Positions 1 through 20,619 of a stretch of DNA of 47,239 nucleotides are shown here, one piece after another. The notes below the pieces were generated by a model. It worked only from the letters and a program-made list of their open reading frames with translations, searched no databases and had not been told where the DNA came from. This DNA comes from a virus: positions 1-47,239 of the IMG/VR virus record IMGVR_UViG_3300020472_000049; one strand, 5' to 3'. The translations under genes were made by a program, and so were the position numbers. Positions within the stretch are counted from its first letter, which is position 1; every line of letters begins with the position of its first letter.

Positions 1-2
1 GA

Positions 3-296: not shown

Positions 297-299
297 ATT

Positions 300-600: not shown

Positions 601-625
601 ATTGAGGTCGAGATATTAGGAAAGA

Positions 626-1015
626 ATGGCAACAAGCAGCCGTGCGTTTAAGGACTTTGATCTGACATTCAGACGGAATCCGATAACGAACGATGTAAAT
701 ACACTCTCTAATGAGGGTGCTATCAAAGAGTCTGTAAAGAACATTGTTCGATACAACTTTTATGAGAAGCCTTTTCTGCCGAATTTTGGTGGCAACATAA
801 CTGGTGCACTTTTTGAATTATACGAAGCAAATCAAACTGGGTTACTTGAATCCCAAATAAAGAATTGCATTAATCGGTATGAACCAAGAGTTGTGTGCTA
901 CAAAGTAGCTACAGCATTTGATGAACGTTATAATGATTTGCAATGTGAGATATATTACCTAATAACTGGTCTTCCAAATGTTCTAGACACACTAGAAATT
1001 ATACTGAAGCGGTAA
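626..1015 (+). CDS. 25: Baseplate wedge subunit gp25
   Basis: gp25 is a small lysozyme-fold protein of the T4 baseplate wedge. It binds gp6 and helps nucleate sheath assembly, and is present in nearly all contractile injection systems. The 129-residue product matches the usual length (T4 gp25 is 132). It starts MATSSRAFKDFDLTF and has the typical FRRNP and TNDVNTLSNEGAIKESVKN region, followed by PFLPNFGGNITGALFE. ATG 626 is preceded by AGGAAAG at 618-624, a good ribosome binding site and the clearest in this region. The TAA stop (1013-1015) overlaps the gp6 ATG by one base, so the pair is probably translationally coupled. Identification is firm from sequence pattern and order. Confidence 0.95.
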   Translation: MATSSRAFKDFDLTFRRNPITNDVNTLSNEGAIKESVKNIVRYNFYEKPFLPNFGGNITGALFELYEANQTGLLESQIKNCINRYEPRVVCYKVATAFDERYNDLQCEIYYLITGLPNVLDTLEIILKR

Positions 1016-2886: not shown

Positions 2887-2889
2887 TCC

Positions 2890-5800
2890 ATGCCAATAGA
2901 GCAGTCTTCGTGGAAGGTAGCTAATTGGGTCACTCCCTCAACGCAGGTAACAGTTGACCCTATTGATGCTACCGTTTCACCAGAAAGTAGGTCTAAAATT
3001 TCTGATAGGATTGAGGAAACGATTCCTCAGTTCATCAGGGACGATTATGGCGACTTTGTTACTTTCCTCAAGTATTATTACCAAGGATTAGAGTTAAAGG
3101 GCAATCCTGTTGATATTGTCCAGAATATAGACGAATATTATAACATAGACCGTCTGAATGACCTAGTAGAGAAGACTACAGCGTCTTCTGGTCTTACAGA
3201 AGTTGCTACAGTCGTTGACGTAGCAAATACTAGAGACTTCCCTAAGGAAGGACTCTTGATGATTGACGATGAGATCATATATTACTCAAGTAAGAGTCAG
3301 ACCCAGTTCAAAGGTTGTGTACGAGGGTTCCATGCTACTACAAAGGTAGGTACATTAAAGGAATATACATTTGCTTCATCTACAGCCGCTACCCATGCTT
3401 TTGGCGCGGATGTAATTAACCTAAACAACCTATTACCACTATTTTTACTTCAAAGGTTTAGGGATCAGTTTGCTGAGTCATTCCCATCCAAATTCCATGA
3501 AGATATTCGCCAATCTTCAGTAACGAAGCGTCTTAAGGACTTCTATGCTGCGAAAGGTACATCTAGATCATTCAAATATCTCATTAGGGTTCTATTTGGT
3601 GTAGAATCAACTATTGAGTATCCAAAGGAAAGAATATTCAAGCCCAGTGACGCTTTCTACACTGTTAGGGAAGTTATTCGTGCTACAGCGATCTCAGGGA
3701 ACCCAGTAGAGCTAACTGGAGAGGTTTTATACCAAGCAGACGACCCAAATGACGATTCAGTCGAAACTGCGCGAATTTACGTTAAATCTGTTGTTGAAGT
3801 TTTCACCGAGAGCGGTAAAATCTACGAATTAGACGTAGATACGGAAAATGGTGCTGGATCCTTTACAACTCCTTATAAAACACTCTTAAGTGAAGATGTA
3901 AGCTCTAATTTGAGTGAAAGTGAAGTTTCAGTTGACTCAACTATTGGTTGGCCCGAAAAGAACGGTGCTTTCCGTATAAACAGCGAAGTTATAGAGTATA
4001 CAGACAAGACAGTCACTCAATTCCTTGGATGTACTCGCGCTAGACAGGATACAACTAACCAACCCCATATTGCGGGTTCGGAAGTTACTTCTGCCTTTGA
4101 GATTTTTGGATATTCCAATAAAGACCAATCTAAGATCAGTTTGAAGGTCTATGGTGGTACTAGAGGTGTTGACTTGGTTACTGGTGGTAGATATTACCTA
4201 CAGGACTCAAAAGTCACTACTCCTGCTGCTCCAGGATTCGATTCACTAGATCCCATCTGGGATAGCTTTGTATACAACGTTAAAAAGCTTGTAAACTCCA
4301 CTGGTGCTAGTTTAGCGAACCCTTCTCAAGATGGATCGGTTGTAGCGACTATTACGACGGATCAGAACCATGGATTGAAGCGTGATGACAGAGTTACGAT
4401 ATTAAATGCTCCAGAAGACGTATATAACTCAACTTTCACGGTTTTGGGTACAAGTGACTCTACTACCTTCCAAATCCTACTTCCTACGACTCCAATCGCA
4501 GGAGTTGTCTCAACTTTCTTAATTGCGCGAGAATTTGCTAAATCTACGTCTACAGATACGTCGATTCGCACAAATATTGAAAACACGCCATCTGACATTC
4601 AAAATGTCTATAAATCGGCAGATCACGCGATTGTTGCTTCTCCAGGAATTCCAGGACACCCAATTGGACCATTTGACTCATCTGATCTAGATCCAGGCAA
4701 TCAACGCTATTTGAAGCGTATTCCACTAACTACAATTACTAAATCAACCAAAACAGCGACTCCAGTCGGTCAGGTTGGAATTGGAGTTAATGGAGTCCCA
4801 ATTTTCTCATATAAGTCAGAATCAGTCAAGTTATATGGTGGTGTTAGTGATATTAGTGTATTAAGTGCTGGTGACGGTTATGATATTACAAATCCACCTA
4901 TTGTTGAATTTGAACCCTTATGGAGTAATGGAACTTACTTCCAAGTCAATGTTAGGATAAGAAACAGTATAGGATATCGTTATAAGAACATAGGAAGCGG
5001 TAAAAGCGCAGAAATAGGTACAGAACCTACTCATACAGATTCATCGCTTGTACAGGACGGAGCATGTATATGGCAGTACGAAGGTCTCTCTGCTGAGGCA
5101 ACTGTTAGTGTAGCTGGTCGTGTATACGCTATTAACGTAACTGATGGTGGTAGTGGTTATACTTCTACACCAAACGTTTCTATATCAGGCGGTGGTGGTA
5201 CAGTACAGGCATCTGCGACTGCTACAGTCACTAATGGTGCTGTTAATGCTATATCGGTCACTGCTGAAGGTACAGGATATACTTCTACTCCAACTATCAC
5301 TATTTCAGGTGGTGGGGGAACTGGTGCTAGTGGTGTGGCAGTTGTTCGTGGTGGTTTGACTGCTGCTGGCATTACTGTTACTAATCCTGGTTCTAACTAT
5401 GAAGAGAGACCAATGGTCACTCTAATTTCAGGTAGTGGTGCTGTTGCCTATCCATCTATTGTTAATGGTAAGATTGTTTCCATTATCCTAACTTATGGTG
5501 GTAGTAACTATTATGGTCCTCCTGACGTTGTTATAACTGGGGATGGAGTTGGTGCTGTTGCTTTTGCGAGTATTGATGGATCAAGTAAGCAAGTTACTAA
5601 TATTAGTGTAACTAACGGTGGTATTGGTTATACTGCTGGTCAAACTTTCGTAGATGTCGTATATCCAGGTTCTGGTGCTAAGTTCCAAGTAGAATTGCCA
5701 GAATTGACTGCTAATACCGCTGCTACGCCAGAAGAACTTGGAGTTACGACTAATGAGCTCGTAGCACCCAAAGTTGCCGATATTCATAATGGTGTTTCTA

Positions 5801-8800
5801 TTAAAGGTGCCAACTATGGAATATATGGTGGAGAATATGGATATCTCTATAATCCGAAGAAATTACGTTTCCTTTTAGGAGATAACGTTAGTGATGGTGA
5901 TAATTCCGAATTAAACCCAACTAGGCACTCTCCTATCTTAGGATGGTCATTTGACGGTCATCCGATCTATGGACCTTATGCATACGTAGATAGGGAGAAT
6001 AAAAACCCATATAATCAGTTAAAACTGATGGTTAGCTCATATCGCGTAAAAACGACTAGAGATGCGCTTATTACGGGTTTAACCGATACAATGGGAACAT
6101 ATATCGAAGATTATGAATATATCGAAGGATCGGGCGATTTAGATCAATATAATGGTCGTTTTTGCGTAACTCCCGAATATCCCGCTGGAATCTATGCATA
6201 TTTCTGTACTTTGGATGGTACGACTGGTAATCCCAAATTCCCGTATTTTGTTGGTCCATCATTCTATTCTCAAGCAGATAGCATTAACTGGAAGGGTAAT
6301 GGTCTACAACAGAACTTTACTGAAGATGCTGTAAGATATAAGTCACCATACATTTATACTGATACTTCTATCGTAAGGAGAAAGGAACTGGGCGATCCAG
6401 TCGAATATGTCCTTGCATTGGAAGATGCTACCACTCCTCTTGTTTTAGAGACCAGTGAAAGCACTAATATGCAGTTTATTGGATTTGTTGATGTTGGTAT
6501 TGGATATTATGATTACTTCCCAATTATTAAGGGTGGTGCTGTAGATTCATTATATGTTTCTGCTACTAACAGGTATTTCTCATCAGGTCTAGATCAGTAT
6601 CTAATTGAAGGTGCTGGATTTGACTATAAAGTCAATGATAGACTTGTATTTGATGAGACTGATACTGGTGGTAGTGGTATCTCTGCTAGGATTTCAAGAA
6701 TTGCTGGTGAGACTGCTAATACCTTACTCTATAGTGTTGATAGCACAACCGATGTTATAACAGGTACTTTAAACACAGCGACTGCTCATTATATCAAACC
6801 AGGGGAAGCAGTAGATATTAGTATTGGTAATAATGAGTCTACTAGAGAAATTAAGGTTAAAACCATTACAACCAACACAGTTGATAACTATCACTTCAAA
6901 TACTTTGATCTGACTAATTTTTATATCAGTTCTCCAGGTAGAGTAAAGCAAACTAATCTAACTCTTACTGGTGGTGATAATTATACTAATGGCACATATA
7001 ACGGTACAGTACTGACTGGTGGAACTGGTTCAGGTGCTACTGCTAATATAACAATTAGTGGAAATGCGGTAACTGCTGTTTCTATACAGAATGAAGGTAA
7101 GAACTACGTAGATGGTGACATATTAAGTGCTGCTATATCTAACGTAGGTGGTACTGGTGCTGGATTTAGTATTGATATTGGTAATGTATTAAAAACAGGT
7201 GGTATTGTACAAGATCAGTGGACACTCTTTGCTGGTAGTGGTGGAACACCTGGAACATACACTAGAGTACCTCTTAAGAACTCTTCTGCCCCTTCTGGTG
7301 AAGGTGCTGAGTTCACTATCGTAGTTGGTGTTGGTGGAGGAGTAACAAGTGTAACTGTAACTAAGGAAGGTAGTGGATATAACGTAAATGAGCAATTAGA
7401 TCCAACAGATTCTGATATTGGTGGATGTAGTGGATTCTACATAACACCTAATGCTATTAATTTAGAATTTACTGGTAGAGGTAGTGCTTCTCATCAATTG
7501 AGTGTAGGTGAAACTATTGTTGTGTCAGGAACTAACCCATCTGACTATGATGGAACTCATACTATAACTGGATATACAACCGAAAGGAAATTCCAGTTCA
7601 AGAAAGCAGTAGGAACTATTACAGACACTGCTATACCAACACTTACAGAGGTTTTTGTTAAAGAGGCCAAACTAGATTTCATCAATGGTCACCTTTACAA
7701 GTTTGATACTACTGATGCCTCTAATGATGGCAAGAGACTTGAATTCTCCTTTGATAAGGAAAATACCAATGTATTCACATATAGGAACATAAGTGATACT
7801 CAAAATGATCCCCAGACTGGACAACAACAGTCCATTACCATTGACTTGGTAGATGTTCCTGGTACATTATTCTACTTTGATATTAATGGTATTAATGGTG
7901 GAGCAGGAAGTTACCTTAGTGTAGTAAATGACCCATTCTTGGGATCTAACACTATTGTTACGACTCCTACTACTACTTCAATGACATTTACTCTGGCTAG
8001 AGAACCAGAGTCTGCTTATAGTTCAACTAATCAACTGTCATACGCAACTAACTCAATATTCCCTTCTGGTGGTATATCAGCAATCAATATTGGTGACCCA
8101 GGTAGAAATTACTCTACGATTCCTAAATTTACTGGTATAGAACGTTCTGGTGGTGGTGCTACTGCTACATGTACAATTTCTGGTATAGTGGAAGACGTTG
8201 CTGTACTTGATTCAGGTATTGACTACAATGGTAGCAACCCACCTGTTGTAGTATGCTCAATGCCAGACTATGTTGACTTAACTGTTGATCAGGTATTTGG
8301 TATCTTTGTTACTGGGGATGTTGTTATATCTCAGACTACTCTTGGTACTGATACTGCTCGTGGTAAGGTTATTTCATGGAATGCCAATACTTCTACATTA
8401 AGAGTTCAACCACTTCGTAACAATTTACAAGGTACAGCGAACCGTGGTTTCATTATGTTTACCACAGGCAACAATAATACAAATAAAGTTTATGTTGGTT
8501 CAAACCAAGCCTTAATTACTGCTATATCTGGTGCTCAAGCTGCTGTTGCTGCTGTTGTTCCCACCTCTGGTGAATTGATCGGAAGAATTGAGACAATGGC
8601 TGTTAATAGTGGTGGTAGCAACTACCGAACCGCACCAACAGTATACATTGATGATCCTTGGTATGGTGGTGCACTTACTGTAAGTATTAATAGTCAGAAC
8701 TCATCTGCTAACTTCACTCCTGGTACATATACTGGTATAACACAAGAGTCTGTTGCTCCTACTGGTGGAGACTATGCTGAATTTACTATTGTAATTGATG

Positions 8801-11800
8801 CTTCTTCTCAGGACGTTACTTCTGCTACTGTCACTCTTGGTGGTAATGCTTATGCTCTTGGTGATTTGATCACTATCAATGGTGAGAAGATTACTGGTGG
8901 TGGTTCTGCTGATGACTTTGTACTTAAAGTTGAGTCATTGACATACTTTAGAAAAGCAGTTACATCAACAACTATTAACGCTTCTATTGATGAAGTAATA
9001 GTGACTAACTCAGGTTCTGGATTCTTATCTGCTCCTGAAGTACAAATCTCTGGTGGTACTGGTATTGGTGCGTCACTTAGAGCAGAAATTATAGATGAGA
9101 CTGTTAAATCTATTGTTATCGAGTCATCTGGTACTAAGTTCCAGAACCCTCCTATTATCACAGTTAAACAGGGTACTGGTAGGGGTGCTTCGATACTATT
9201 GAAATCAACTGACCTAGGTAAGGTAATCAATCTAGGTGGAGATAATATCACGTACAACTATTCACATGATAGAACCCTCAAACCGTCCGTTAATACAACT
9301 TATAATTTACAACTCACAAGAACTCAGGTCGTTGACTTCTTCACTGTTACGGATGGGGGATACTCATTCGTTACAAAACCAACAATCGAACTTGTTGGTG
9401 GAGGTGGAAGCGGTGCAGTATTGGATGCTATTATTGATAACGAAGTTATTCAAGCTATTGCCGTAACGAACCCAGGTAAAGGATATTCATCAACACCTAA
9501 GGTACAGGCTAGAATGACACACTCATTCGTAGCTCTACAATCTAATAATACACTCAACTTCCCATATGGTACTAAGATCCCTGTAGGGACAGAAGTAAGC
9601 TTACTTGAGATTGATGGCACATTACCTGCTCCTTTATTAGCAAATACTACTTACTATGCCATCGCACCTCTGTTGAGTAATGGTATGGCAGATAACCAGT
9701 TGAAACTTGCTAGCACATTATCTAATGCTGTTGCTGGTACTTCTATTACTATTACTGGTTTGCCTATGATAGGTCCAGGTGGAACAAGTACATTTAACCT
9801 AACAACAACTGATTTGGGTGATGTTATCTCAGTTATCATGAAACCAGCAACATTCTCTGTTGGTGAGAAGTTATATCAAGGTACATCAACAGATTCATAT
9901 TCTGCTATCGGTGAAGTTAAGTATTGGGATCCTAAGGGTAGAATCCTTTCTGTTGAGATAGAAACAGGTGAATTCCTAGTAGGACAGCCTGTATTTGGTT
10001 TACAGACTAAAGCATTTGGTGAGATCCATGAATTTGATAGATCTCAGGCTAATTTCAGAGTAAGTCCTATTGCTACTGCTACTGCTGAGTGGAAGAGAAC
10101 CACTGGTATTCTCGATCTTAATGAACAGCGTATATACGACTCTAATAGGTATCAGGAATTCTCATATGTTGTTAATTCACCTATTAACGTTAAGGAATGG
10201 AAGAATCAATTTAAGACATCTGCCCATCCTGCTGGATTTAAGGTACTAGGTACACAAGTAGTATCACAATCCACATTTAAGAACTATCGTAAGAAGTCAT
10301 TCTATAATCCTTCCAATCCATCATCTTATGACTGGTGGGAACCAAGAGAAGGTGATCCTACTGAGTCATTCTATGGTACGACTTACTTTACACCTAAGCC
10401 TTCTGCTTCTAACTCAGGTAAGTTATCTAGAATTGAGAACTTCTTCTTAGGTAAACCAGATTATACTGCTCTTGTACCAACTAACGTTCAGATTAGTGGT
10501 AAGCAGTTACTTGATGTTAGGAAGATCTTGACTGCTGTTGTAGACAAGATGGATAGAATCAATGACAGGACAATTACCTTTGATGGTAGTAGTTCTTCTA
10601 TTGTATCCACTGCTAACAATCAGTTTACCTTAACTAACCATGGTTTACTTACTGGTCAGAAGGTTAGTTATAATGTAGTAGCTGACAGATATCAGGATGC
10701 TAGAGATTTAATAATTGCTAATATTGATCATATAATTGATACTACTTCTACTTGGTTAGAAGCAACTTATCCTGCTTTAACAGATGGTACTAAACCTGAT
10801 TATAACGCAGCAACATGTAAGAGAGACCTTAGATTAGTAGTTGTTAACTGGGTTAATGACTTACGTTATGGTGGTAACTCATTCTCATGGGATGTAGCAG
10901 ATCAGTATATTGGTGGTGTTGGTGTTCTTGCTAATAAGTATGCTGATGCTAAGTTCCTAATCCTTAAGAACAAGCAACTCATTGCTGAGGAAGCATTGGG
11001 TAAGATGAAGGTAGATTATCCTGCTTTCAGTGTCCATAATGGCACCGATCAAGATTGTTACGATGATATTATTGATGTATTAGAAGCGATCTCTTATAAC
11101 ATGACATATGGTGGCAACAGTGAAGTATATGATGGTGCCAACTACTATGTTACAGGTAATCATGTAGATTCTGTAGAAACTGAGGTCAACACAGCATTTA
11201 ACCATGCTAGGGATTTGGCTATCAAGGTAGCACAGAACTATCCTCTAGTACTAGCACATTCATCTGAGGTACAGTTCTTTGATACCTCAATTACTGCTGA
11301 TACTGCTGGTTATATCAGTAACTTAGTTGCTGATGCTAGAAATATAATTCTTGCCAATAAGAATCAGATTGCTAAGACTGCTGTAGATAGAATGGAGACA
11401 CTATATCCTTCTCATGCCGTTACTGGTGGTAGGATTGAGTGTGAATATGATGTTAGAGACTTTATAGACGCAATGGTTGAGAACCTAGCTCGTGGTGGTA
11501 ACGACGAAGTTTGGGATGCTTCAAACTACTACGTAACAGGTGGATTTGTTATTGGGGAAGAGGTTGAATCAGCATATGTCTTTGAACAGGCAAAATTAAT
11601 CACAAATGTGGTTGTACAGAATAAGACAGTATCCGATATGACAGGTCAGGTAATTGATCCAATTACAGCCGATCCTGAAGATAATAAGTGTGCTACTGTA
11701 CAGGCAACTATAACAACTTTATATGATATAGTAATCGCTGCTATCACTACACCTCTAAATCATGCTTCTTTAACTAGAACTGAGAAGACTGGTGGTAATA

Positions 11801-14800
11801 GAGGATCATGTGCTCTTGTTGAGTCTGCTATTACTACTCAGATGGCAATTATCACAACTGCCATATCAAATGACAATATGAGTCATGTAACTCGTACTGA
11901 ACCAGCAAATGCCATATATCATATTGCTGGAGAGGAGACCGAGACTATTGCTGCTATTCAATATGCTAGAGATCTTGCCAAGCAAGCAGTACAGAACCTA
12001 TTACCTGTAGCAGATGCTACTATTACTGTAGATTATAATGGTTGTACTGATGTAAGAGCAGCCATTGACACTCTTGCTGAGATTGTATGGAAAGGTATTG
12101 ATAATCCATCCAGTATTCCTGATAGGAACGTTGGATCATATCCAGACATCAGAGTAAGTGATGCTGTACAGGGTTATGAGACATATGCCCCAACTAAAGC
12201 TGCTTATCTACCTGCTTCTGGTCTATTCACAGTTACCTTAGCAGATCATGGATTTGAATTAGGTGAGTACGTACAGTTCCCAGATGATACATTTAGATTT
12301 ACATGTTCTAAGGATAGTCATGCTACTCAGCATACATATCCAAGATCCACTGACCCTGCTAGTGGTAAGTGGTTAGAGATTATTCAACTTTCTAAGGATA
12401 CTTTTACTGTTAACGTTGGTATAACTACTGACCTTTCTACTCATACATTCGTTTCTGCTACAGGTACACATACTTTCGTATCTGGGGTTTCTAGTGCTAT
12501 TACAGTAACAGGTGGTGCTACACATACAGCAGCTGCTGGTACAACATATAACCCATTGACGGGTGATCTAGTTTTAGAGATTGGTTCACATTCTCTTACT
12601 ACTGCTAATACAGTTACTATTGCTGATAGTGGAGTTATATTTACATGTGACATGGATAGTCACGGTTCCAACCATGCTTATCCTAGAGCAACTGATCCTG
12701 TTTCTGGTGAGGCACTTGCTATTAGTGCTGTAACTGCTACAACTATTACTGTTAACGTTACTCCTGCTACTAAGATCTGGAAGAAGATCAGTAACGCTGA
12801 CGATTACTATGTAATTAGAGTAGATGCTGATAATATTAAACTTGCACAGTCTCCATCGAATGCTGCTGTCAATAGATCTATTGCTATAACTGGATTATCC
12901 ACTTCTGATCAACATAAGTTAAGAGTTAGATTTGATGGATATACTACGGACTTCCAGTTGAGATATAGGGATGCTGCTGTAGCACCAACCAATAAGAATA
13001 TGCTTATGGTTGTTATTAATGGTATAGTACAGAACCCAGTATCATATAGTTTATCTGGTAGTACATTAACTTTCTCTGAGGCACCTATGATGGACTCAGA
13101 AGTCATTGTTATGTACTATAAGCGAAATGATATAACAACTAACTTCCAGTTAGATCAATTTGGTGATGTAATCAGTTCTTTGAATACTACTGATGGACTC
13201 TATCAGGGTTCTGGATATACTGCTGGTACATATAATGGTGTTTCTCTAATCAATAAGAGAGGTAATACTGGTACGGGAGCAACTGGTAATATTGTAGTTA
13301 CCGATGTACTTGATAGTGCTACCCACAACACAAACAACCAATATGCTGATGCTCGTCTACTAATAGACAACAACGCTGAGGTTATTGCTGATGTTGCTGT
13401 TGGTTTACTTAACAATTATGGTACTCCTACTGATAATAGAGTATCAGATGGAGCAAACTTAATATTAATGAATAAGGACTTCATTGCTAAAGAAGCAGTG
13501 GACAGAATGCATGCTGATATTCCTTATGTCATACCTAATAAGAGATCATTTGACGCATATAACCTAATACAAGGTAATAGAGAATTCCTAGCATGGGAAG
13601 CATATCATCTATTCAGTACTATAGACTATCCTGGATATAATCACGCTCAGGGTTATACATCTCAGGATTGTGTTGATGATGTTCTTGATATTATAGATGC
13701 TGTATCCTTTAACCTCCTACATGGTGGTAATAATAAGGTATATGATGCTGCTTACTTCTACACTGGTGCTTATGATAGTGGTAGTGTTATTGCTGGAGAG
13801 GAACAACAGACTCTTGCTGTTATTAACCAATTGAAGACACTGATGAATAAGGTTGTTGTCAATGAATTGGTTACAGTTGGTGGATCTCATGGATATACTC
13901 AGTATACAGAAGATACTACCTATATCTTTGATGGTTGTGTAAGTATTAAGTCTACAATCTCTACATTATTATCCATTGTTGAGACTGCTATCAATACTGA
14001 CTTAATGGTACATGTCACTAAGACAACTCCTGCCCTATTTGTTGAACCAACAGGTGATAGTCAGGATTGTGTTGATGATATAGTCGATGTATTAGAAGCA
14101 ATTGGTATTAACTTGAAGTTTGGTGGTAACAGTGAAGTATACGACGCTGCCAAGTATTATGTTGATGGTGCTCACGTTGCTGGAGAAGAAATTCATACCA
14201 TATATGCTTTCCGTGAAGCAAATAAGATAGCACAAGAAGTTGCTAGACAGGAAGCTGTTACTATACAAGGTACACACGGTGCCACTCAGAAATATGATGG
14301 TGGATTGACCAGACTTAGTGGAAATCCTTGTGCTACTGTATGTTCTACCGTAGACACACTATTCAACATCGTTGAGGTGGCAGTAGATACTGATACTATG
14401 AGCGCATTCACTAGGACTGCTCCTACTGGATTTACTGTTCCTGGACTTGGATCCAATCAGTGTAAAGCAGACACAGTTGATGTTTTACAATCAGTTGGTG
14501 TTAACATAGCATTCGGTGGTAACCATATTCTTTATGATACTATCAATATGTACTTCACTGGAGCACATATTTCAGGTGAAGAGACACAGACTAAGTACGT
14601 CTTTGAAGAAGCACGTCAGATGGTTCTCAAGGCAATCAATAATGAGTCATTTGAGTTATATCCACAACTAAATCTAACAACTAAGCAGCAGTTTAAGGAT
14701 AGCACTATCACAGCATATTCTACAACTACACCTGCTTCCTTTACTCCTACAGCAGCAACCTATACACAAGCTAGTGGTAATCTAGAATTAACCATTGGAT

Positions 14801-17800
14801 CACATAGTCTAACTGTTGGTACACGCATACAGATTGCTGATGCTTCATTGACATTCAAGTGTGCTATGGATGGTAGTGTCACACATCACCAGTATCCTAG
14901 ATCCACTGACTTCGCATTTGGTAAATCTATAAAAATTACAGCAGTAACTGGAACCACAATTACAGTGAACGTTGGGTCAACTCCTCAGGTTCTATTTGAT
15001 GTCACTGATGCTTCATATAACGGTGCTACAGGACGTTTAGAACTACAGATAGTCAATACTCAGTTCAATGTAACCAACGCTACTTACAACCCCGTTACAG
15101 GCGACCTGGTGGCAACTATAGGTAGTCATTCAATGATAGTTGGTGAGCACATCTTATTTGCTCCTAATTCACTAACATTTACATGTGCTATGGATGAACA
15201 TTCCACTAAGCACACCTATCCTAGGGCAACAGATCCATATTACAACAAACCTCTTAATATTACTGCTAAGGATTCAACTACAGTGACTGTTAATGTGGGT
15301 ACTTCACCTACAGTTAACCATGATGTTACTGATGGTACATATGAACCTACAACTGGTGAGATGAGTCTTACTGTTGGTAATCATTTACTTGAGGTTGGAA
15401 ATACAGTATTACTTAATACAAGTGATCTTAAATTCCAATGTGATCTAGACAATTACGTTACAGATCACTCATATCCTAGATCTACTATTGATACACATAC
15501 AGCCACTGGTGCTGCTTTCAATACACAGACAGGTATCGTTACTATAACCGTTGCTTCTCATGGAATGAGAGATGGTGACTGGGTTAAATTAGATGATGAT
15601 AGTCTAACCTTCACATGTACTCAGGGTGGTGGTACTCATGCTTATCCACGTTCTACAGATCCTATATCTGGTAAGTGGGTTCAGGTATCTGGATGTACTG
15701 GTAGTACATTTGACATACAATGTTTAGAGAATACTCCTTGTACTAATGCTACTGTACATACCTTTAACTCTGCTGTTACAAACGGAATTAAGCAGAAGAG
15801 AGATAGGTCATATCAGAACGCAATGAAGATATCTTCTGTTACTGGTACAACTATTACACTTAACGTCGGTATATCCTCTGATACTACAACTCACAGATGG
15901 AAGCCTGGACACGTTGCTACTGCTGGTGTTATTGGTGGTGGAAATCATACTCATACATGGGCTGGTGGAACTGCTACTGGAGCAGTTATACTTCCTCATG
16001 GATTCAGACCTCAGAGAATACTAACCGTAGAGACTGCTGCTTATAATCCTACTACAGGTATTATGACACTGACTGTACCTGATCATAATCTAACTTCTAC
16101 TGACCAGATTAAGATTAAGGATGATTCAGTATCATTTACATGTACTCATGGTGCTGGCACTAAGACATATCCTAGAGCATCTGACCCAGTAAGTCAGAAG
16201 TGGATTAATGTAGGGAATATTACTAGAGATACTTTCACAATACAGGTTCTAGATTCTACACCTTCTACTAACGTAACTGCTCATACATTTGTATCTGCCC
16301 TTGCTGATGGCATTACTGTTGCTGGTCAGACTGTTAAACTTGCTGATGGTTCTATTACATTGACTTGTGATATGGATGATCACTTCACTGATCATGCTTA
16401 CCCAAGAACAGCAACTATAACTCATACAGTTACTGATGCTACTTACAATCCAACAACAGGTATATTAACATCTACCATTGCTGGTCATGGAATGGTTTCT
16501 GGAGACTTTGTTAAATTCGCAGATGATTCACTAACATTCACATGTACTGAGGGTGCTGGTAATCACACATATCCAAGATCATCAGATGAAGCTTCTGGTG
16601 CTTGGTTAGAGATAAGTAACGTCACTGCTAATACATTTGATGTACGTGTTGTTGATATTCTACCTTCTACTAACGTTACTGCCCATACATTCGTAAGTGC
16701 CAGCTCAGGTGGTGTCACACAGAAGATTGACAGAGCATATGACTCAGCACTTCAGATCATTGATGCTACATATGACACTATTACTCTTGATGTTGGTAAA
16801 GCACCTGAATTAGCATTCACACCGACTGGTGCTACTTACAATGCTGCTGCTGGTACCATGGAAGTTACCATTGGTGCTCATAATTTAAGAATTGGTACAA
16901 AGGTTAAGATGTTAGATGGTGCCATCACATTCACATGTGATGAAGATGCTGATGCTACTAATCATGCTTATCCTAGAACTACTATTGATGGACATCAGGC
17001 TACTAACGTAGCATACAACCCAACATCAGGTGTAATGAGTATTACATCTGCTGCTCATGGATTACGTAATGGAGATAAGGTCAAGTTAGCACCTAATAGC
17101 TTTAAGTTTACATGTACTCATGGTGATTCTGGTGATCACACATACCCTCGTTCTACAGATCCATTCTACGATAAGTGGATTGAGGTAACTAATGCTGCTA
17201 CTGATACATTTGATCTACAAGTCCTAGCAACTCAACCATCTTCTAACGTTACAACTCATACTTGGGTAGCTCCTACAGCATTAACACCAACTGGTGCCAC
17301 TTATAGCGGTACTACGGGCGTAATGAGCATCACATCTGCTGCTCATGGATTAGAGAATGGAGATATGATTAAATTGAATGATGGAGCAATAACCTTCAGG
17401 TGTGATTATGGTTCTGGTATCCACACATGGAATGGTGGTACTTCTAGTAGTGCTATTACTGTAACTGGTGGTAGTAACATGGATGTCACTACTGCTACCT
17501 ATGATTCTGGCACTGGAGAATTGATATTAAACGTTGGAACACATAGTTTAACGACTTCTAATACAATTCAGATTGGTGCTAATAAACTATCATTCACTTG
17601 TGAGTTAGACAGTCATGGTTCGGTTCACACTTATCCTAGAGCAACTGATCCTGTTTATGGTCAGACCTTATCTATTACAGATTATGATATTGAGACGATT
17701 ACAGTCAATGTAGGTAATACACAGGGATCTGGTACTGCTTATCCTAGAGGAACTAAGTCAGAACTCACAGCTGCTGCTGGTACAACATATGATCCTGCTA

Positions 17801-20619
17801 CGGGTTTGATGGTTGTTACAACAACTGCTGCTCAACATGGTATTGCGGTTGGAGATGAGGTTCTATTTGATGATGGTGCTATATCATTCACTTGTGCCCA
17901 AGATGGTAACAGTGCTGTTAAGCCATATCCTCGTTCCAGTGACTATGCTAGTGGTAAGTGGTTGAAGGTTCATGCTAAGACTTCCAATACATTTACAGTA
18001 CAAGTATTAGACACAATTCCTTCCACTAACACTGATGCTCATGTATGGGTATCTGGTGTTACTAATGGTATCAATACAAGAGATCCTTTAAGTGGTAGAT
18101 ATGTCCCAGTTTCTAATGTAACTGCGAATACATTTGATATTCAAGTATTGGATTACACTCCATCTACTAATGAATCAACACATACGTTCGTTTCTGGTGT
18201 TGCTAACTCAATTAACAGAGCAGAGATTAGAGCGAAACGTGATAGGTCATATGATCATGCTATTAATATTTCAGCGGTATCTTCCACTACTATTACTTTA
18301 GATGTTGGTATATCATCTCATGTATCTACACATGCGTACGTATCAGCTTTATCTAACAGTATTATTACTGGTGGTCAGCATACTCATAAGTTTAAGAGTG
18401 CCACATCAGGTGCTGTAATAACAGGAGCACCTTATACTCATACATTCTTGAGTTCCACTTCTGGTGCTGTACTCAATGGTCAGTGGGGATGTACACATGT
18501 TCAAGCTGCTGTTGATACCTTAATGGATCTAGCATATACAGCAATAGATCAGGGTAACTTTAGTGGAATAACAAGGACTGTAGGTCAATGTGGTGATGGT
18601 TATGAAACTGCACCAACAATTACTTTAACTGGTGGTTCACCAACTACAGCAGGAACAATGGTTCCAATACTTTCTAAGGAAGGTACGATTAAGAAGATTG
18701 ATCTTATCGCAGTAGGGGTTGGGTATAATAATGTTCCTACTGTTAAGATCACATCTAATACTGGTGCTAACGCTACAGCTACTGCTGCTGTCGCTGGTGG
18801 TGCTTTGACAGGTGTTACGGTTACGGAAGGTGGATTTGGATATGATGATGTAACAGTTGAAATTATTGCTAATGCTGCTGACACAATTACAACAACATCT
18901 ACTGCTTATGCTACTGTTGGTAGGCATTTAGAGAAGATTGTTGTACAGTCCAGGGGTCAGGGATACTCTTCTACCCCATCTATAGCAATTAGTGGTGGTA
19001 CACCCGCTACTGCTGCTAGTGGTGCTACTGCAACTCTTACAGGAGCTGTTACTTCGGTAACCTTAGTTAATGGTGGAGATGGTTATAAGAATACAGATAT
19101 GCTTGGTGCCGATGCTTCTGATATTGGTGGCACGGTTACGAATTCATTCCAGATTGAGGTTTCAACAGTATCCTTTAATGGTGTTACTACTGCTTTTGCT
19201 GCTACTGTTAGTGGTAGTGGATATACGTTACCTGCTAACGATAGATTCCTATTATTCTTGAACTCTACTATACAGAAGGTTACTGATTCATACTCATATA
19301 CAGGAACACCTTCTACTATTACATTTACAGAAGCTCCATTAGGTAATATGGACTTCTACTGCTTCTACGTTGGGCAGTTACAGGATATGGATGATCTTGC
19401 CCCATACTTTAATGGAAGTAAGAAGACATTCATTCTTAAGAAGAATGATCAACCATTCTCACTTGAATCTGATTCAACAGCTGTTATAACAGCGAATAAC
19501 CTCGTTATGTTCCTTAATGGAATATATCAGGAACCTGAAGTTGCTTACACTCTCAATGGTTCTATCCTTGAGTTTAGTGAAGCACCTAGAGCGGGTACAG
19601 ATGTATCTGTATTCATCTATACTGGATCAAATCTGGATATAACAACTGAAGATACTTACAATTGTCTTGATCCTGGTGATATCTTAGAGATTCAATCTGA
19701 AGGAGAGTCACGTAAACTTGCTACTGTTGCTAGTTCGTCTTCATTAGATACATATGAGTATACAGGACTCAGACCAACAGTTGCTGAGTTTACTGCTACT
19801 GTAGTTGGTGGTAAAGTTGTTGATGTAACAATCACATCTGCTGGTTCTAACTACGAAGTCCCCCCATACCTCTTGTTCAGTGGTGGTGGTGGAACTGGTG
19901 CTTTTGCACAAACAACTATTGAAGTTGGTAGTGGTAGAGTTATAGGAGTAACCAACCTTGAGGGTGGTTCTAACTATAATACTGCTCCAGCAGTCACACC
20001 ATATCATCCTATTGCTCTGGAAAGAACGCAGAGAGACAGAGCAGTTTCTAACGGTGTATTCTTATATACTACTCAGTTAACCTCAAATATCTCTGCTACA
20101 GCAAGCACTATTAATGTACTCGACGCATATTATAATGGCGGTGTAGGATTCCCAAGTCAGGGTCAGATAATGATTCCTTTCTGGAATAGCACTGCTGGTG
20201 TATGGGGTGTTGAAAGGATTCTTTATGGTAGTGTTGATTATGGGGCTAATACTTTCACTGTCACTACCAATGGTAGAGGACATAAGGATACTGGTCCTTC
20301 CCTAGGAACTGGTCATGCGATCAGTATACAACAGGGATCATACAATTCTGCTGATACTTCGGTAACAGTAAATGGGGTCTTACGATCCTCAAGTTTAGTC
20401 ACCGCTACTATGGGTGCTAATCACAATCTTCTAACAGGTATGGAGAGGTTCATTAAGTTCACCTCTGGTCAGGGATCATATCCTGCTACCTCATTAAATG
20501 GTACTTACAGGATAACAAAAACTGGAGATACCACATTCACGTTCACCATACCAGTAGGATTGGCTGCGACTGGAGAGAGTCTAGAGATTCTTCCAACAGT
20601 TCGCGTCTACGTAGTATAA
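2890..20619 (+). CDS. Giant modular baseplate wedge protein in the gp7 position (5,909 aa)
   Basis: This uninterrupted frame lies between gp6 and gp8, the T4 gene 7 position. The N-terminus (residues about 30-95) has ETIPQFIRDDYGDFVTFLKY and NIDEYYNIDRLNDLV, typical of cyanophage wedge/fibre proteins. A GDEIIxY-type module sits at about 105-155 and again at 340-395. GxGY beta repeats fill about 650-935. A YHYH domain spans about 945-1130, with FDGHPIYGPYAY at 1021-1032 and GRFCVTPEYP further on. More beta repeats follow to about 2200. A region with RIYDSNRYQEFSYVV and HPAGFKVLG lies near 2410-2460. Residues about 2600-5200 hold alternating helical and YPR beta modules. The C-terminus has two NGxxQ-type domains and more GxGY repeats. 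T4 gp7 is 1,032 residues, so this is nearly six times larger. The ATG lies three bases after the gp6 stop with no ribosome site, suggesting coupling. The wedge role is inferred from position and N-terminus; fibre functions are possible. Confidence 0.85.
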   Translation: MPIEQSSWKVANWVTPSTQVTVDPIDATVSPESRSKISDRIEETIPQFIRDDYGDFVTFLKYYYQGLELKGNPVDIVQNIDEYYNIDRLNDLVEKTTASSGLTEVATVVDVANTRDFPKEGLLMIDDEIIYYSSKSQTQFKGCVRGFHATTKVGTLKEYTFASSTAATHAFGADVINLNNLLPLFLLQRFRDQFAESFPSKFHEDIRQSSVTKRLKDFYAAKGTSRSFKYLIRVLFGVESTIEYPKERIFKPSDAFYTVREVIRATAISGNPVELTGEVLYQADDPNDDSVETARIYVKSVVEVFTESGKIYELDVDTENGAGSFTTPYKTLLSEDVSSNLSESEVSVDSTIGWPEKNGAFRINSEVIEYTDKTVTQFLGCTRARQDTTNQPHIAGSEVTSAFEIFGYSNKDQSKISLKVYGGTRGVDLVTGGRYYLQDSKVTTPAAPGFDSLDPIWDSFVYNVKKLVNSTGASLANPSQDGSVVATITTDQNHGLKRDDRVTILNAPEDVYNSTFTVLGTSDSTTFQILLPTTPIAGVVSTFLIAREFAKSTSTDTSIRTNIENTPSDIQNVYKSADHAIVASPGIPGHPIGPFDSSDLDPGNQRYLKRIPLTTITKSTKTATPVGQVGIGVNGVPIFSYKSESVKLYGGVSDISVLSAGDGYDITNPPIVEFEPLWSNGTYFQVNVRIRNSIGYRYKNIGSGKSAEIGTEPTHTDSSLVQDGACIWQYEGLSAEATVSVAGRVYAINVTDGGSGYTSTPNVSISGGGGTVQASATATVTNGAVNAISVTAEGTGYTSTPTITISGGGGTGASGVAVVRGGLTAAGITVTNPGSNYEERPMVTLISGSGAVAYPSIVNGKIVSIILTYGGSNYYGPPDVVITGDGVGAVAFASIDGSSKQVTNISVTNGGIGYTAGQTFVDVVYPGSGAKFQVELPELTANTAATPEELGVTTNELVAPKVADIHNGVSIKGANYGIYGGEYGYLYNPKKLRFLLGDNVSDGDNSELNPTRHSPILGWSFDGHPIYGPYAYVDRENKNPYNQLKLMVSSYRVKTTRDALITGLTDTMGTYIEDYEYIEGSGDLDQYNGRFCVTPEYPAGIYAYFCTLDGTTGNPKFPYFVGPSFYSQADSINWKGNGLQQNFTEDAVRYKSPYIYTDTSIVRRKELGDPVEYVLALEDATTPLVLETSESTNMQFIGFVDVGIGYYDYFPIIKGGAVDSLYVSATNRYFSSGLDQYLIEGAGFDYKVNDRLVFDETDTGGSGISARISRIAGETANTLLYSVDSTTDVITGTLNTATAHYIKPGEAVDISIGNNESTREIKVKTITTNTVDNYHFKYFDLTNFYISSPGRVKQTNLTLTGGDNYTNGTYNGTVLTGGTGSGATANITISGNAVTAVSIQNEGKNYVDGDILSAAISNVGGTGAGFSIDIGNVLKTGGIVQDQWTLFAGSGGTPGTYTRVPLKNSSAPSGEGAEFTIVVGVGGGVTSVTVTKEGSGYNVNEQLDPTDSDIGGCSGFYITPNAINLEFTGRGSASHQLSVGETIVVSGTNPSDYDGTHTITGYTTERKFQFKKAVGTITDTAIPTLTEVFVKEAKLDFINGHLYKFDTTDASNDGKRLEFSFDKENTNVFTYRNISDTQNDPQTGQQQSITIDLVDVPGTLFYFDINGINGGAGSYLSVVNDPFLGSNTIVTTPTTTSMTFTLAREPESAYSSTNQLSYATNSIFPSGGISAINIGDPGRNYSTIPKFTGIERSGGGATATCTISGIVEDVAVLDSGIDYNGSNPPVVVCSMPDYVDLTVDQVFGIFVTGDVVISQTTLGTDTARGKVISWNANTSTLRVQPLRNNLQGTANRGFIMFTTGNNNTNKVYVGSNQALITAISGAQAAVAAVVPTSGELIGRIETMAVNSGGSNYRTAPTVYIDDPWYGGALTVSINSQNSSANFTPGTYTGITQESVAPTGGDYAEFTIVIDASSQDVTSATVTLGGNAYALGDLITINGEKITGGGSADDFVLKVESLTYFRKAVTSTTINASIDEVIVTNSGSGFLSAPEVQISGGTGIGASLRAEIIDETVKSIVIESSGTKFQNPPIITVKQGTGRGASILLKSTDLGKVINLGGDNITYNYSHDRTLKPSVNTTYNLQLTRTQVVDFFTVTDGGYSFVTKPTIELVGGGGSGAVLDAIIDNEVIQAIAVTNPGKGYSSTPKVQARMTHSFVALQSNNTLNFPYGTKIPVGTEVSLLEIDGTLPAPLLANTTYYAIAPLLSNGMADNQLKLASTLSNAVAGTSITITGLPMIGPGGTSTFNLTTTDLGDVISVIMKPATFSVGEKLYQGTSTDSYSAIGEVKYWDPKGRILSVEIETGEFLVGQPVFGLQTKAFGEIHEFDRSQANFRVSPIATATAEWKRTTGILDLNEQRIYDSNRYQEFSYVVNSPINVKEWKNQFKTSAHPAGFKVLGTQVVSQSTFKNYRKKSFYNPSNPSSYDWWEPREGDPTESFYGTTYFTPKPSASNSGKLSRIENFFLGKPDYTALVPTNVQISGKQLLDVRKILTAVVDKMDRINDRTITFDGSSSSIVSTANNQFTLTNHGLLTGQKVSYNVVADRYQDARDLIIANIDHIIDTTSTWLEATYPALTDGTKPDYNAATCKRDLRLVVVNWVNDLRYGGNSFSWDVADQYIGGVGVLANKYADAKFLILKNKQLIAEEALGKMKVDYPAFSVHNGTDQDCYDDIIDVLEAISYNMTYGGNSEVYDGANYYVTGNHVDSVETEVNTAFNHARDLAIKVAQNYPLVLAHSSEVQFFDTSITADTAGYISNLVADARNIILANKNQIAKTAVDRMETLYPSHAVTGGRIECEYDVRDFIDAMVENLARGGNDEVWDASNYYVTGGFVIGEEVESAYVFEQAKLITNVVVQNKTVSDMTGQVIDPITADPEDNKCATVQATITTLYDIVIAAITTPLNHASLTRTEKTGGNRGSCALVESAITTQMAIITTAISNDNMSHVTRTEPANAIYHIAGEETETIAAIQYARDLAKQAVQNLLPVADATITVDYNGCTDVRAAIDTLAEIVWKGIDNPSSIPDRNVGSYPDIRVSDAVQGYETYAPTKAAYLPASGLFTVTLADHGFELGEYVQFPDDTFRFTCSKDSHATQHTYPRSTDPASGKWLEIIQLSKDTFTVNVGITTDLSTHTFVSATGTHTFVSGVSSAITVTGGATHTAAAGTTYNPLTGDLVLEIGSHSLTTANTVTIADSGVIFTCDMDSHGSNHAYPRATDPVSGEALAISAVTATTITVNVTPATKIWKKISNADDYYVIRVDADNIKLAQSPSNAAVNRSIAITGLSTSDQHKLRVRFDGYTTDFQLRYRDAAVAPTNKNMLMVVINGIVQNPVSYSLSGSTLTFSEAPMMDSEVIVMYYKRNDITTNFQLDQFGDVISSLNTTDGLYQGSGYTAGTYNGVSLINKRGNTGTGATGNIVVTDVLDSATHNTNNQYADARLLIDNNAEVIADVAVGLLNNYGTPTDNRVSDGANLILMNKDFIAKEAVDRMHADIPYVIPNKRSFDAYNLIQGNREFLAWEAYHLFSTIDYPGYNHAQGYTSQDCVDDVLDIIDAVSFNLLHGGNNKVYDAAYFYTGAYDSGSVIAGEEQQTLAVINQLKTLMNKVVVNELVTVGGSHGYTQYTEDTTYIFDGCVSIKSTISTLLSIVETAINTDLMVHVTKTTPALFVEPTGDSQDCVDDIVDVLEAIGINLKFGGNSEVYDAAKYYVDGAHVAGEEIHTIYAFREANKIAQEVARQEAVTIQGTHGATQKYDGGLTRLSGNPCATVCSTVDTLFNIVEVAVDTDTMSAFTRTAPTGFTVPGLGSNQCKADTVDVLQSVGVNIAFGGNHILYDTINMYFTGAHISGEETQTKYVFEEARQMVLKAINNESFELYPQLNLTTKQQFKDSTITAYSTTTPASFTPTAATYTQASGNLELTIGSHSLTVGTRIQIADASLTFKCAMDGSVTHHQYPRSTDFAFGKSIKITAVTGTTITVNVGSTPQVLFDVTDASYNGATGRLELQIVNTQFNVTNATYNPVTGDLVATIGSHSMIVGEHILFAPNSLTFTCAMDEHSTKHTYPRATDPYYNKPLNITAKDSTTVTVNVGTSPTVNHDVTDGTYEPTTGEMSLTVGNHLLEVGNTVLLNTSDLKFQCDLDNYVTDHSYPRSTIDTHTATGAAFNTQTGIVTITVASHGMRDGDWVKLDDDSLTFTCTQGGGTHAYPRSTDPISGKWVQVSGCTGSTFDIQCLENTPCTNATVHTFNSAVTNGIKQKRDRSYQNAMKISSVTGTTITLNVGISSDTTTHRWKPGHVATAGVIGGGNHTHTWAGGTATGAVILPHGFRPQRILTVETAAYNPTTGIMTLTVPDHNLTSTDQIKIKDDSVSFTCTHGAGTKTYPRASDPVSQKWINVGNITRDTFTIQVLDSTPSTNVTAHTFVSALADGITVAGQTVKLADGSITLTCDMDDHFTDHAYPRTATITHTVTDATYNPTTGILTSTIAGHGMVSGDFVKFADDSLTFTCTEGAGNHTYPRSSDEASGAWLEISNVTANTFDVRVVDILPSTNVTAHTFVSASSGGVTQKIDRAYDSALQIIDATYDTITLDVGKAPELAFTPTGATYNAAAGTMEVTIGAHNLRIGTKVKMLDGAITFTCDEDADATNHAYPRTTIDGHQATNVAYNPTSGVMSITSAAHGLRNGDKVKLAPNSFKFTCTHGDSGDHTYPRSTDPFYDKWIEVTNAATDTFDLQVLATQPSSNVTTHTWVAPTALTPTGATYSGTTGVMSITSAAHGLENGDMIKLNDGAITFRCDYGSGIHTWNGGTSSSAITVTGGSNMDVTTATYDSGTGELILNVGTHSLTTSNTIQIGANKLSFTCELDSHGSVHTYPRATDPVYGQTLSITDYDIETITVNVGNTQGSGTAYPRGTKSELTAAAGTTYDPATGLMVVTTTAAQHGIAVGDEVLFDDGAISFTCAQDGNSAVKPYPRSSDYASGKWLKVHAKTSNTFTVQVLDTIPSTNTDAHVWVSGVTNGINTRDPLSGRYVPVSNVTANTFDIQVLDYTPSTNESTHTFVSGVANSINRAEIRAKRDRSYDHAINISAVSSTTITLDVGISSHVSTHAYVSALSNSIITGGQHTHKFKSATSGAVITGAPYTHTFLSSTSGAVLNGQWGCTHVQAAVDTLMDLAYTAIDQGNFSGITRTVGQCGDGYETAPTITLTGGSPTTAGTMVPILSKEGTIKKIDLIAVGVGYNNVPTVKITSNTGANATATAAVAGGALTGVTVTEGGFGYDDVTVEIIANAADTITTTSTAYATVGRHLEKIVVQSRGQGYSSTPSIAISGGTPATAASGATATLTGAVTSVTLVNGGDGYKNTDMLGADASDIGGTVTNSFQIEVSTVSFNGVTTAFAATVSGSGYTLPANDRFLLFLNSTIQKVTDSYSYTGTPSTITFTEAPLGNMDFYCFYVGQLQDMDDLAPYFNGSKKTFILKKNDQPFSLESDSTAVITANNLVMFLNGIYQEPEVAYTLNGSILEFSEAPRAGTDVSVFIYTGSNLDITTEDTYNCLDPGDILEIQSEGESRKLATVASSSSLDTYEYTGLRPTVAEFTATVVGGKVVDVTITSAGSNYEVPPYLLFSGGGGTGAFAQTTIEVGSGRVIGVTNLEGGSNYNTAPAVTPYHPIALERTQRDRAVSNGVFLYTTQLTSNISATASTINVLDAYYNGGVGFPSQGQIMIPFWNSTAGVWGVERILYGSVDYGANTFTVTTNGRGHKDTGPSLGTGHAISIQQGSYNSADTSVTVNGVLRSSSLVTATMGANHNLLTGMERFIKFTSGQGSYPATSLNGTYRITKTGDTTFTFTIPVGLAATGESLEILPTVRVYVV
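3217..4075 (+). repeat. Pair of GDEIIxY/GCxR modules in the giant wedge protein
   Basis: Two similar segments occur within the frame at about 3217-3350 and 3910-4075. The first reads FPKEGLLMIDDEIIYYSS and then FKGCVRGF; the second reads WPEKNGAFRINSEVIEYTD and then FLGCTRAR. Both share a hydrophobic start, a (D/N)xE(I/V)I(Y/E)Y core and a GC(V/T)R end. The first copy interrupts the conserved N-terminal wedge region. A degenerate copy lies near 20100-20280, and a related segment occurs in the DUF4815 gene near 27610-27800. Confidence 0.6.
4840..5690 (+). repeat. GxGY beta-repeat array, first block
   Basis: The frame encodes about six to seven tandem units of roughly 40 residues. Each has a valine-rich strand, a GGxGY or GSxY turn, a TPxVxISGGGG strand and a GAxAxA spacer, for example DGGSGYTSTPNVSISGGGG. 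The DNA is dominated by GGT, ACT and GCT codons, which makes units similar at nucleotide level. Such repeats are common in cyanophage virion proteins and probably form a stacked beta structure. Confidence 0.75.
6950..9500 (+). repeat. GxGY and TPGTYTG beta-repeat arrays, second and third blocks
   Basis: After the YHYH domain the array resumes. A variant unit with (T/P)NGTYNG or TPGTYTR, a GAEFTIVV-type strand and an end like SDIGG occurs near 6960-7180, 7220-7440 and 8710-8930. Classical GxGY/TPxVxI units lie near 8060-8260, 8590-8680 and 9000-9500. Between them is an ordinary, non-repetitive domain of about 200 residues (7440-8060). Confidence 0.65.
10680..14660 (+). repeat. Helical GGN/YDAAxYY module array in the giant wedge protein
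   Basis: Six copies of a predicted helical module of about 40 residues share the pattern CxDDIxDVLExIxxNLxxGGN followed by xVYDAAxYYxxGxHxxGEE. The GGN codons lie near 10870, 11110, 11493, 13722, 14122 and 14515. They are interleaved with two partner helices: an ADAxxLIxxNKxxIAxEAxxxM unit (about 10940, 11330, 13340, 13450) and a CxxVxxxIxTLxxIVxxAI unit (about 11690, 11810, 12040, 13935, 14330, with a further copy at 18490). The same three units recur in the giant gene at the right edge. Confidence 0.8.
12190..12790 (+). repeat. FTC/YPR beta modules, leading pair
   Basis: Two copies of the beta module that dominates 14730-18480 occur here, separated from the main array by the second half of the helical array. 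Each has an L(E/T)xGxxVxxxDxxxxFTC-type strand, a short Asp/His-rich loop, then YPR(S/A)TDPxSG, as in the YPRSTDPASGKW near 12336 and the YPRATDPVSGE near 12676. Confidence 0.75.
14730..18480 (+). repeat. FTC/YPR beta-module array in the giant wedge protein
   Basis: About a dozen in-frame copies occur of a module of roughly 70-110 residues. The consensus is a TYNPTTGxM strand, then HGLxxGDxVKxxDxSxxFTC, a loop with conserved His, and YPRSTDPxSGKW. Many copies continue with a TFxVxV strand and PSTNxTxHTFVSA. YPR codons lie near 14890, 15210, 15467, 15640, 16160, 16390, 16560, 16963, 17135, 17620, 17737 and 17920. The Cys of FTC and the loop His are almost invariant. The right-edge gene carries the same array from about 43520. 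Confidence 0.85.
18585..20010 (+). repeat. C-terminal GxGY repeats and NGxxQ domains of the giant wedge protein
   Basis: GxGY units return at about 18585-19215 and 19770-20000. Between them are two copies of a domain with a (F/L)LN(S/G)xxQ start and an I(T/L)F(T/S)EAP end, near 19255-19370 and 19505-19630. A third copy, reading VVINGIVQNPVSYSLSG, lies near 13010-13130 inside the helical array. From memory, this domain type is common near the C-terminus of cyanophage wedge proteins. Confidence 0.6.

Follow-up and report, generated by a model that had tools for sequence, protein, structure and literature searches.

The window analyzed here, the entire 47,239-nucleotide stretch of the IMG/VR record IMGVR_UViG_3300020472_000049, contains on its plus strand a reading frame that runs from an ATG at position 2890 to a stop codon ending at position 20619 without any internal stops. 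The frame codes for a protein of 5,909 amino acids with a computed mass of 630.2 kDa and a pI of 4.8 (hereafter, the giant). It is located in the gene order gp25-gp6-giant-gp8 (Table 1), which corresponds to the setting of gp7 in T4, where the order is gp6-gp7-gp8. T4 gp7 consists of 1,032 residues (3,099 nt), and the giant is thus 5.7 times as long. Upstream of gp25, positions 1–302 of the window read as the end of a short Gly-/Ser-rich protein; P-HM2 has a PAAR gene in the corresponding region.

Table 1. Positions of the genes and protein modules in the window (aa numbers refer to the encoded protein).
Feature	Positions	Strand	Evidence
gp25 baseplate wedge subunit	626..1015	+	Pfam GPW_gp25 E 2e-9; phrog_261
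gp6 baseplate wedge subunit	1015..2886	+	phrog_219 E 1e-176
Giant gp7-type protein, putative wedge protein, 5,909 aa	2890..20619	+	frame, selection, T4 gp7 homology
Part homologous to T4 gp7, aa 211-316, YxxKGTxxSF motif	3520..3837	+	hhalign P 4.9e-7; PDB 9f4a
Beta-barrel, aa 463-552	4276..4545	+	VIA-align 4hiz Z 10.7, 2.1 A over 80 residues, 25% identity; UBA6 Z 11.2
YHYH domain, aa 980-1109	5827..6216	+	Pfam PF14240 E 8e-28
First R2 block, aa 2603-3069, phycobiliprotein-like repeats	10696..12096	+	R2 model
R1 pair, aa 3104-3299, 86-aa beta-barrel repeats	12199..12786	+	R1 model; inside stretch that L095 lacks
Second R2 block, aa 3487-3961	13348..14772	+	R2 model
Long R1 array, aa 3956-5150, 15 copies or part-copies	14755..18339	+	R1 model
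Conserved C-terminal part, aa 5178-5907	18421..20610	+	62% identical to L095 end
gp8 baseplate wedge subunit	20643..22166	+	phrog_438 E 4e-164
Tail-fiber gene, cut by window end	39280..47238	+	phrog_5342; 15 R1, 2 R2
R2 copies in tail fiber, aa 1075-1389	42502..43446	+	R2 model

The first 2,000 residues of the giant matched phrog_2885 (E 0) and phrog_701 (E 4e-295), and the other two thirds of the protein matched both profiles too. The giant is collinear with a 5,915-aa protein encoded by an 82-kb contig, L086; the two are 80.5% identical over 5,901 aligned residues, with the largest indel being no longer than 15 aa. Values of dN/dS calculated for this pair were between 0.08 and 0.31 in all 20 alignment segments, indicating purifying selection. 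Of the 99 relatives found in IMG/VR, 80 loci were retained; the homologous frame reaches the end of the locus in 77 and comes to a stop of its own after 3,747 codons in three. The frame at 2890–20619 is one continuous protein under selection. A preliminary description of the window had read the frame as unbroken over 5,909 codons between gp6 and gp8, and its product as larger than 600 kDa and almost six times as long as T4 gp7; the ORF scan, the profiles of the neighboring genes, and dN/dS bear out the former, and the computed mass and length ratio the latter.

An assembly artefact or collapse of repeats is unsupported. Tandem Repeats Finder listed no array, and copies within DNA repeat families of at least 49 nt were 60–83% alike, i.e., too diverged for easy collapse. 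Two contigs from IMG/VR sample 3300032032 cover gene bases 1–8033 and 9707–17730 (together, 16,057 of 17,730 bases), with five and three differences from the window, seven of the eight silent; since they differ, they do not represent the same molecule as the window. The 1,673 bases between them are in neither contig; the homologous L086 extends across this interval. A third contig has 62 differences across bases 1–4062. A frameshift or collapse in the repeats, which the preliminary description had named as the danger to its reading, was looked for as far as possible, and, given the near-identical contigs, L086, dN/dS, and the Tandem Repeats Finder result, the frame stands. In L006, the contig covering gene bases 1–8033, positions 1058–3946 differ from window positions 1–2889 at 199 of 2,889 bases (ungapped count). 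Despite this divergent flank, its match to the start of the giant gene contains only the five differences in 8,033 bases; judging from the sequences, the contrast looks like a recombination border close to where gp7 starts.

Relation to T4 gp7 and to giants of other cyanophages

In an hhalign comparison, an N-terminal profile made of 30 sequences aligned residues 211–316 of the giant with residues 727–813 of T4 gp7 (probability 92.5, P 4.9e-7). A PDB search with the N-terminal profile gave gp7 (9f4a) as the top match, at E 9e-4. The giant and T4 gp7 have in common the gene position and a homologous stretch of 86 columns, and the homology is limited to this one stretch of about 86–106 residues. 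It is located near the N-terminus of the giant but within the final third of T4 gp7. A counterpart of the ~700 T4 residues that precede it was not detected in the giant, while about 5,600 residues follow it in the giant, compared to about 220 in T4 gp7. The AlphaFold model of the N-terminal part was weak (mean pLDDT 56, pTM 0.29). When this model was used in Foldseek, 9f4a_A0, a chain of 1,031 residues, was ranked first with E 2.9e-4 but with a TM of 0.08, and 5iv5_BJ of the T4 baseplate was also on the list; gp7 was not among the rows returned by VIA-align, where one domain fills the list.

PMC7029224 states that cyanomyophages lack T4 gp7 and that VrlC appears to take its place. On that account, the gene between gp6 and gp8 could code for a fiber or spike protein, with VrlC doing the work of gp7, and both the shortness of the T4 gp7 homology and the modules that the giant has in common with the tail fiber (see below) would fit. 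We consider this unlikely, as the pairwise profile test and the PDB search both point to gp7, and the order gp25-gp6-giant was constant in the isolates read. Within the short stretch concerned, the sequence profiles speak against the absence of gp7 as worded in that paper. The gp7 position given in the preliminary description holds, and so does identity as a gp7 relative, based on gene order and profile homology.

The window phage is a relative of the Eurybiavirus phages P-HM1, P-HM2, and MED4-213, and the order of structural genes is identical. The gp7 proteins of these phages (4,446–4,458 aa) resemble the giant in position, in collinear N- and C-terminal parts, and in the presence of two repeats, R1 and R2, though they have six R1 and two R2 copies compared to 16–17 R1 and seven R2 copies in the giant. 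The proteins at the gp7 position of other isolates consist of 6,198 aa (S-ShM2), 5,422 aa (S-CREM1), 5,195 aa (P-SSM2), 4,878 aa (Sf-CH8), 4,225 aa (ACG-2014f), 4,067 aa (Bellamy), 3,895 aa (S-SRM01), and 3,048 aa (S-PM2), and in the first 18 complete IMG/VR relatives of 3,747–5,915 aa. Table 3 of PMC10665884 gives 1,937 aa for the S-CREM2 protein and reports 91 unique peptides from virions for ORF122 of this phage, which is matched to gp7 by map position only. PHROG profiles of 4,179 and 6,136 positions were available before this work, and tblastn with the first 600 residues found 470 phage records, of which 457 bear the name Synechococcus, Prochlorococcus, or cyanophage. Giant proteins are the norm at the gp7 position of T4-like cyanophages, and size by itself is not new; the surprise at the size implied in the preliminary description was misplaced, given the 3,048–6,198-aa giants of the isolates read and the shorter S-CREM2 protein.

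In most isolates gp8 directly follows the giant. The exceptions are S-PM2, with one small gene before gp8, and S-ShM2 and S-CREM1, where the next gene is otherwise named. The giants of P-SSM2 (annotated gp7) and S-ShM2 (annotated virion structural protein) follow gp6 and have an N-terminal part homologous to that of the window giant, with about 29% and 36–37% identity, respectively; the former has R1 without R2, and the latter R2 without R1. The S-ShM2 giant (L110 18144-36740) also contains ~500 additional residues between the parts that align to residues 132 and 136 of the window protein. A 573-aa CDS named ‘gp7 baseplate wedge initiator’ (L110 36765-38486) lies directly after the S-ShM2 giant, at the place expected for gp8, and the naming in this record may be shifted. 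In S-SKS1, a gp7 match (L105 19982-26979) has no annotated CDS and the sole frame of at least 1,000 aa there is 1,571 aa long; it seems that the gene is disrupted in this record or that the sequence is poor. A 200-kb contig contains a second, distant gp7-like match (G027:C1:9545-21235; 31% identity, two internal stop codons) as well as gp8-like matches of 36–46%, and a second phage genome may have been joined into it.

Modules of the giant and the R1 repeats

By VIA-align, the barrel at residues 463–552 is matched by the E1 FCCH domain (Z 11.2) and by the barrel of a phage endosialidase, that of phi92 (4hiz; Z 10.7). R1 barrel models are likewise nearest to the E1 FCCH domain (Z 8.0) and, less clearly than the first barrel, to the phi92 endosialidase (Z 7.0), with Z of 7–8 being middling on the VIA-align scale. 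The E1 domain thus matches the window barrels as well as or better than the endosialidase does. Unlike the latter, the giant contains long R1 arrays, and no sialidase domain was found in a Pfam scan of gp7. The YHYH domain is elsewhere predicted to be a metal-dependent hydrolase (PMC7824862).

At the inclusion threshold, R2 occurs seven times in the giant and R1 17 times, with 16 of the R1 copies scoring at least 20 bits. At that score, relatives had 0–15 R1 copies in a first set and up to 18 later. A 4,445-aa relative without R1, L095, is collinear with residues 1–3097, 3305–3944, and 5178–5907, so the excess of the window protein consists mainly of two R1-holding stretches, residues 3098–3304 and 3945–5177, 1,440 residues in all. 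The AlphaFold model of an R1 trio (residues 4383–4610) had a mean pLDDT of 87 but a pTM of 0.48, and Foldseek found nothing below E 0.001 for the R1 model. A PDB search with the R1 sequence gave two matches at E 0.57–0.58, which are of no use. Each of the 13 window R1 copies tested had its closest counterpart in L086 or L087, and for 12 of them the best L086 match was at the corresponding position; this position-by-position match implies that the array is older than the divergence of the window and L086.

R2 repeats and phycobiliproteins

R2 is a repeat of ~97–100 aa that is common to gp7 and the tail fiber, and the tail fiber gave a sub-threshold match to the Pfam phycobilisome family. A PDB search with a profile of five R2 copies placed phycobiliproteins at the top (E 0.11; 12 of 14 rows). 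The 158 R2 copies were then reduced to 37 representatives, of which 30 make up alignment A6. With A6, the best E was 8.3e-5, and 58 of the best 60 of 117 matches were named phycobiliproteins, which are mutual relatives and count as one family rather than as 58 independent tests; the other two were a ribosomal protein and a ‘bacterial fluorescent protein beta’, the latter aligned to the same segment as the phycobiliproteins. A profile of all 158 copies scored 40.2 (P 1.6e-6) against a profile of 80 phycobiliprotein frames, which came from loci in almost every cyanobacterial genome. None of 200 column shuffles reached this value (maximum 23.2), and the reversed profile scored 14.2.

Residues 39–107 of the phycobiliprotein profile (PF00502) align with residues 1–62 of R2. 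Within this segment, 59 of the 62 non-redundant R2 copies retain C37 and 61 retain D40; among the 53 full-length non-redundant copies, C..D was found in 50 and C-x-R-D in 10. These two residues line up with the chromophore Cys and Asp of phycobiliproteins, where the Cys and Asp of the CxxD motif have chromophore-related roles. Unlike phycobiliproteins, R2 is about 97 aa long, is repeated, and occurs inside virion proteins.

The R2 copies of the window scored 14.6–18.2 bits against PF00502, all under the curated cut-off of 22.2 bits, and are therefore called phycobiliprotein-like rather than members of the family. When taken singly, seven of the 30 A6 copies matched PF00502 at E of 1 or lower and 23 did not; eight other Pfam families matched one A6 copy each, and PF00502 itself gave weak matches at this level in four of 14 control genomes, including E. 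coli. The low scores, the 23 copies without a match, and the weakly positive controls would be expected if the likeness were due to chance or to convergence of helices, with no tie between the families. That explanation, too, appears improbable. The phycobiliproteins among the PDB matches, related entries as they are, fall on the same segment, and the score of the real profile exceeds those of shuffled and reversed ones. Moreover, one R2 copy of the S-CREM1 giant scores above the Pfam cut-off (22.9 versus 22.2 bits) over its whole length (residues 1–96 of 100), with CLRDM at the motif, which led us to judge derivation from phycobiliproteins slightly likelier; none of the remaining 29 A6 copies passes. 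Finally, tblastn with one R2 found 317 of 50,697 phage records, and all 317 are cyanophages by name.

The R2 model found five copies of at least 20 bits in the tail fiber of S-PM2, reportedly one of the phages studied for light-dependent adsorption, and none in the T4 segment tested. No copies of at least 20 bits were found in the scanned loci of P-SSM2, Bellamy, ACG-2014f, S-SKS1, S-SRM01, and Sf-CH8, each covering a portion of the genome. The model also matched phycobiliproteins of Synechococcus WH7803, with the best E being 2.4e-8 in a small search set.

Sequence comparisons thus suggest that R2 probably derives from phycobiliproteins, with Cys and Asp of the chromophore type retained and the repeat used for the gp7 arm and tail fibers. 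If so, a cyanobacterial light-harvesting fold would have been turned into a structural part of a phage and contribute to virion architecture. Several marine cyanomyoviruses adsorb in a light-dependent manner, and Prochlorococcus is without phycobilisomes, according to PMC2984593. A phycobiliprotein-derived R2 would be a testable candidate for, and not a demonstrated cause of, such adsorption. That some R2 copies bind bilin and in this way explain light-dependent adsorption is a speculation to which we give very little credence. The presence of a phycobiliprotein-like R2 in gp7 and the tail fiber looks new: among titles and abstract openings of open-licence papers, which are weak evidence of absence, no earlier account of phycobiliprotein-like repeats in phage tails was found.

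Co-variation with the tail fiber and a model of the wedge

In 12 genomes with both genes complete, the lengths of gp7 and the tail fiber were strongly correlated (Pearson 0.957; 0.947 for 11 independent contrasts). The correlation of contrasts stayed at 0.92 or higher when any one genome was dropped and was 0.87 without both extremes, and none of 2,000 tip permutations reached the observed value. The genomes are Eurybiavirus-like only and come from contigs that happened to hold both genes, not from a designed sample. The window and G003, G009, G015, G016, G020, G031, G032, G033, and G035 were left out because the fiber is cut by the end of the contig or window, and G030 was dropped before the counts, its lengths being the same as those of G029. 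The lengths of VrlC (2,213–2,235 aa, 12 genomes) and of ORF-2376 (2,377–2,450 aa, 11 genomes; MED4-213, where it is split, was left out) are nearly constant, and the tiny variation of VrlC also correlates (0.55–0.64).

R1 is present in both proteins in nine of the 12 complete genomes and in neither in three. Among genomes with a cut fiber, seven have it in both proteins and three, so far, in neither; G008 and G012 are uninformative, as their fiber fragments (1,387 and 1,084 aa) stop before the R1 region, which begins at about residue 1442 in the window fiber. The co-variation could arise simply because R1 modules are used in both proteins, which would then have no functional link. When R1 residues were removed, the correlation fell to 0.62 (0.46 for contrasts), and in one lineage gp7 has 10–18 R1 copies while the fiber stays at eight. 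We give this explanation a substantial chance, somewhat below even. Against it, recent intragenomic exchange of R1 between the two genes as a cause of the coupling was not seen in five genomes, where R1 copies of gp7 were no closer to their own fiber than to foreign fibers (88 of 120 permutations reached the observed value). Along with the phycobiliprotein origin of R2, we propose that the gp7 arm and the fiber may be matched in length since both must reach the host together. The length relation predicts about 5,700 aa for the cut fiber of the window, an extrapolation beyond the fitted lengths that provides a simple check of the coupling. The co-variation looks new; no earlier account of it, or of the architecture of giant gp7, was found in the titles and abstract openings of open-licence papers, again weak evidence of absence.

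Taken together, a single 630-kDa gp7-type wedge protein with a modular arm is the best explanation of the data, and one that we hold to be rather likely. The N-terminal ~320 residues would dock on gp6 and gp25 and hold the wedge together, while the remainder would project as a long arm composed of beta domains, the YHYH domain, R2, R1, and the conserved C-terminal part. In T4, each wedge contains one copy of gp7 bound to its neighbors. By analogy, one giant per wedge would result in six arms per baseplate, beside tail fibers with the same modules, and the arms may extend reach and contribute to contact with the host surface. Arm length would depend chiefly on the R1 repeats and to a lesser degree on R2. 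The occurrence of the same modules in the fiber and in gp7 suggests a shared building kit. The ‘six built-in fibers’ of the preliminary description stay conjectural, with added support from tandem beta-barrels between conserved ends and from repeats common to the tail fiber. A wedge protein would thus have grown to 630 kDa with its gp7 core kept, through addition of repeat modules that are common to the tail fiber.

Alternatively, the giant may be synthesized as one chain whose gp7-like wedge part and fiber-like part are then separated by cleavage. The conserved N- and C-terminal parts are indeed separated by a repeat region of variable length, and an S8 peptidase gene is reported in P-HM1 and P-HM2 (PMC3037559). 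We find this less probable even than a fiber or spike protein, since the complete relatives read retain one frame, 3,048–6,198 aa long, with the exception of the S-SKS1 record, which has no long frame.

Another ORF of the window, at 31569–38699, contains a concanavalin-like lectin domain (PF13385, E 1e-15), and its orthologue is annotated as gp7 in P-HM1 and P-HM2. This ORF was rejected as a second gp7, as no link to the gp7 core was seen (hhalign probability 0.6%), and the annotation in P-HM1 and P-HM2 looks wrong. In MED4-213, the annotation of the orthologue (L004 13336-20620) comprises two CDS separated by a gap, which reflects either a frameshift or truly two genes.
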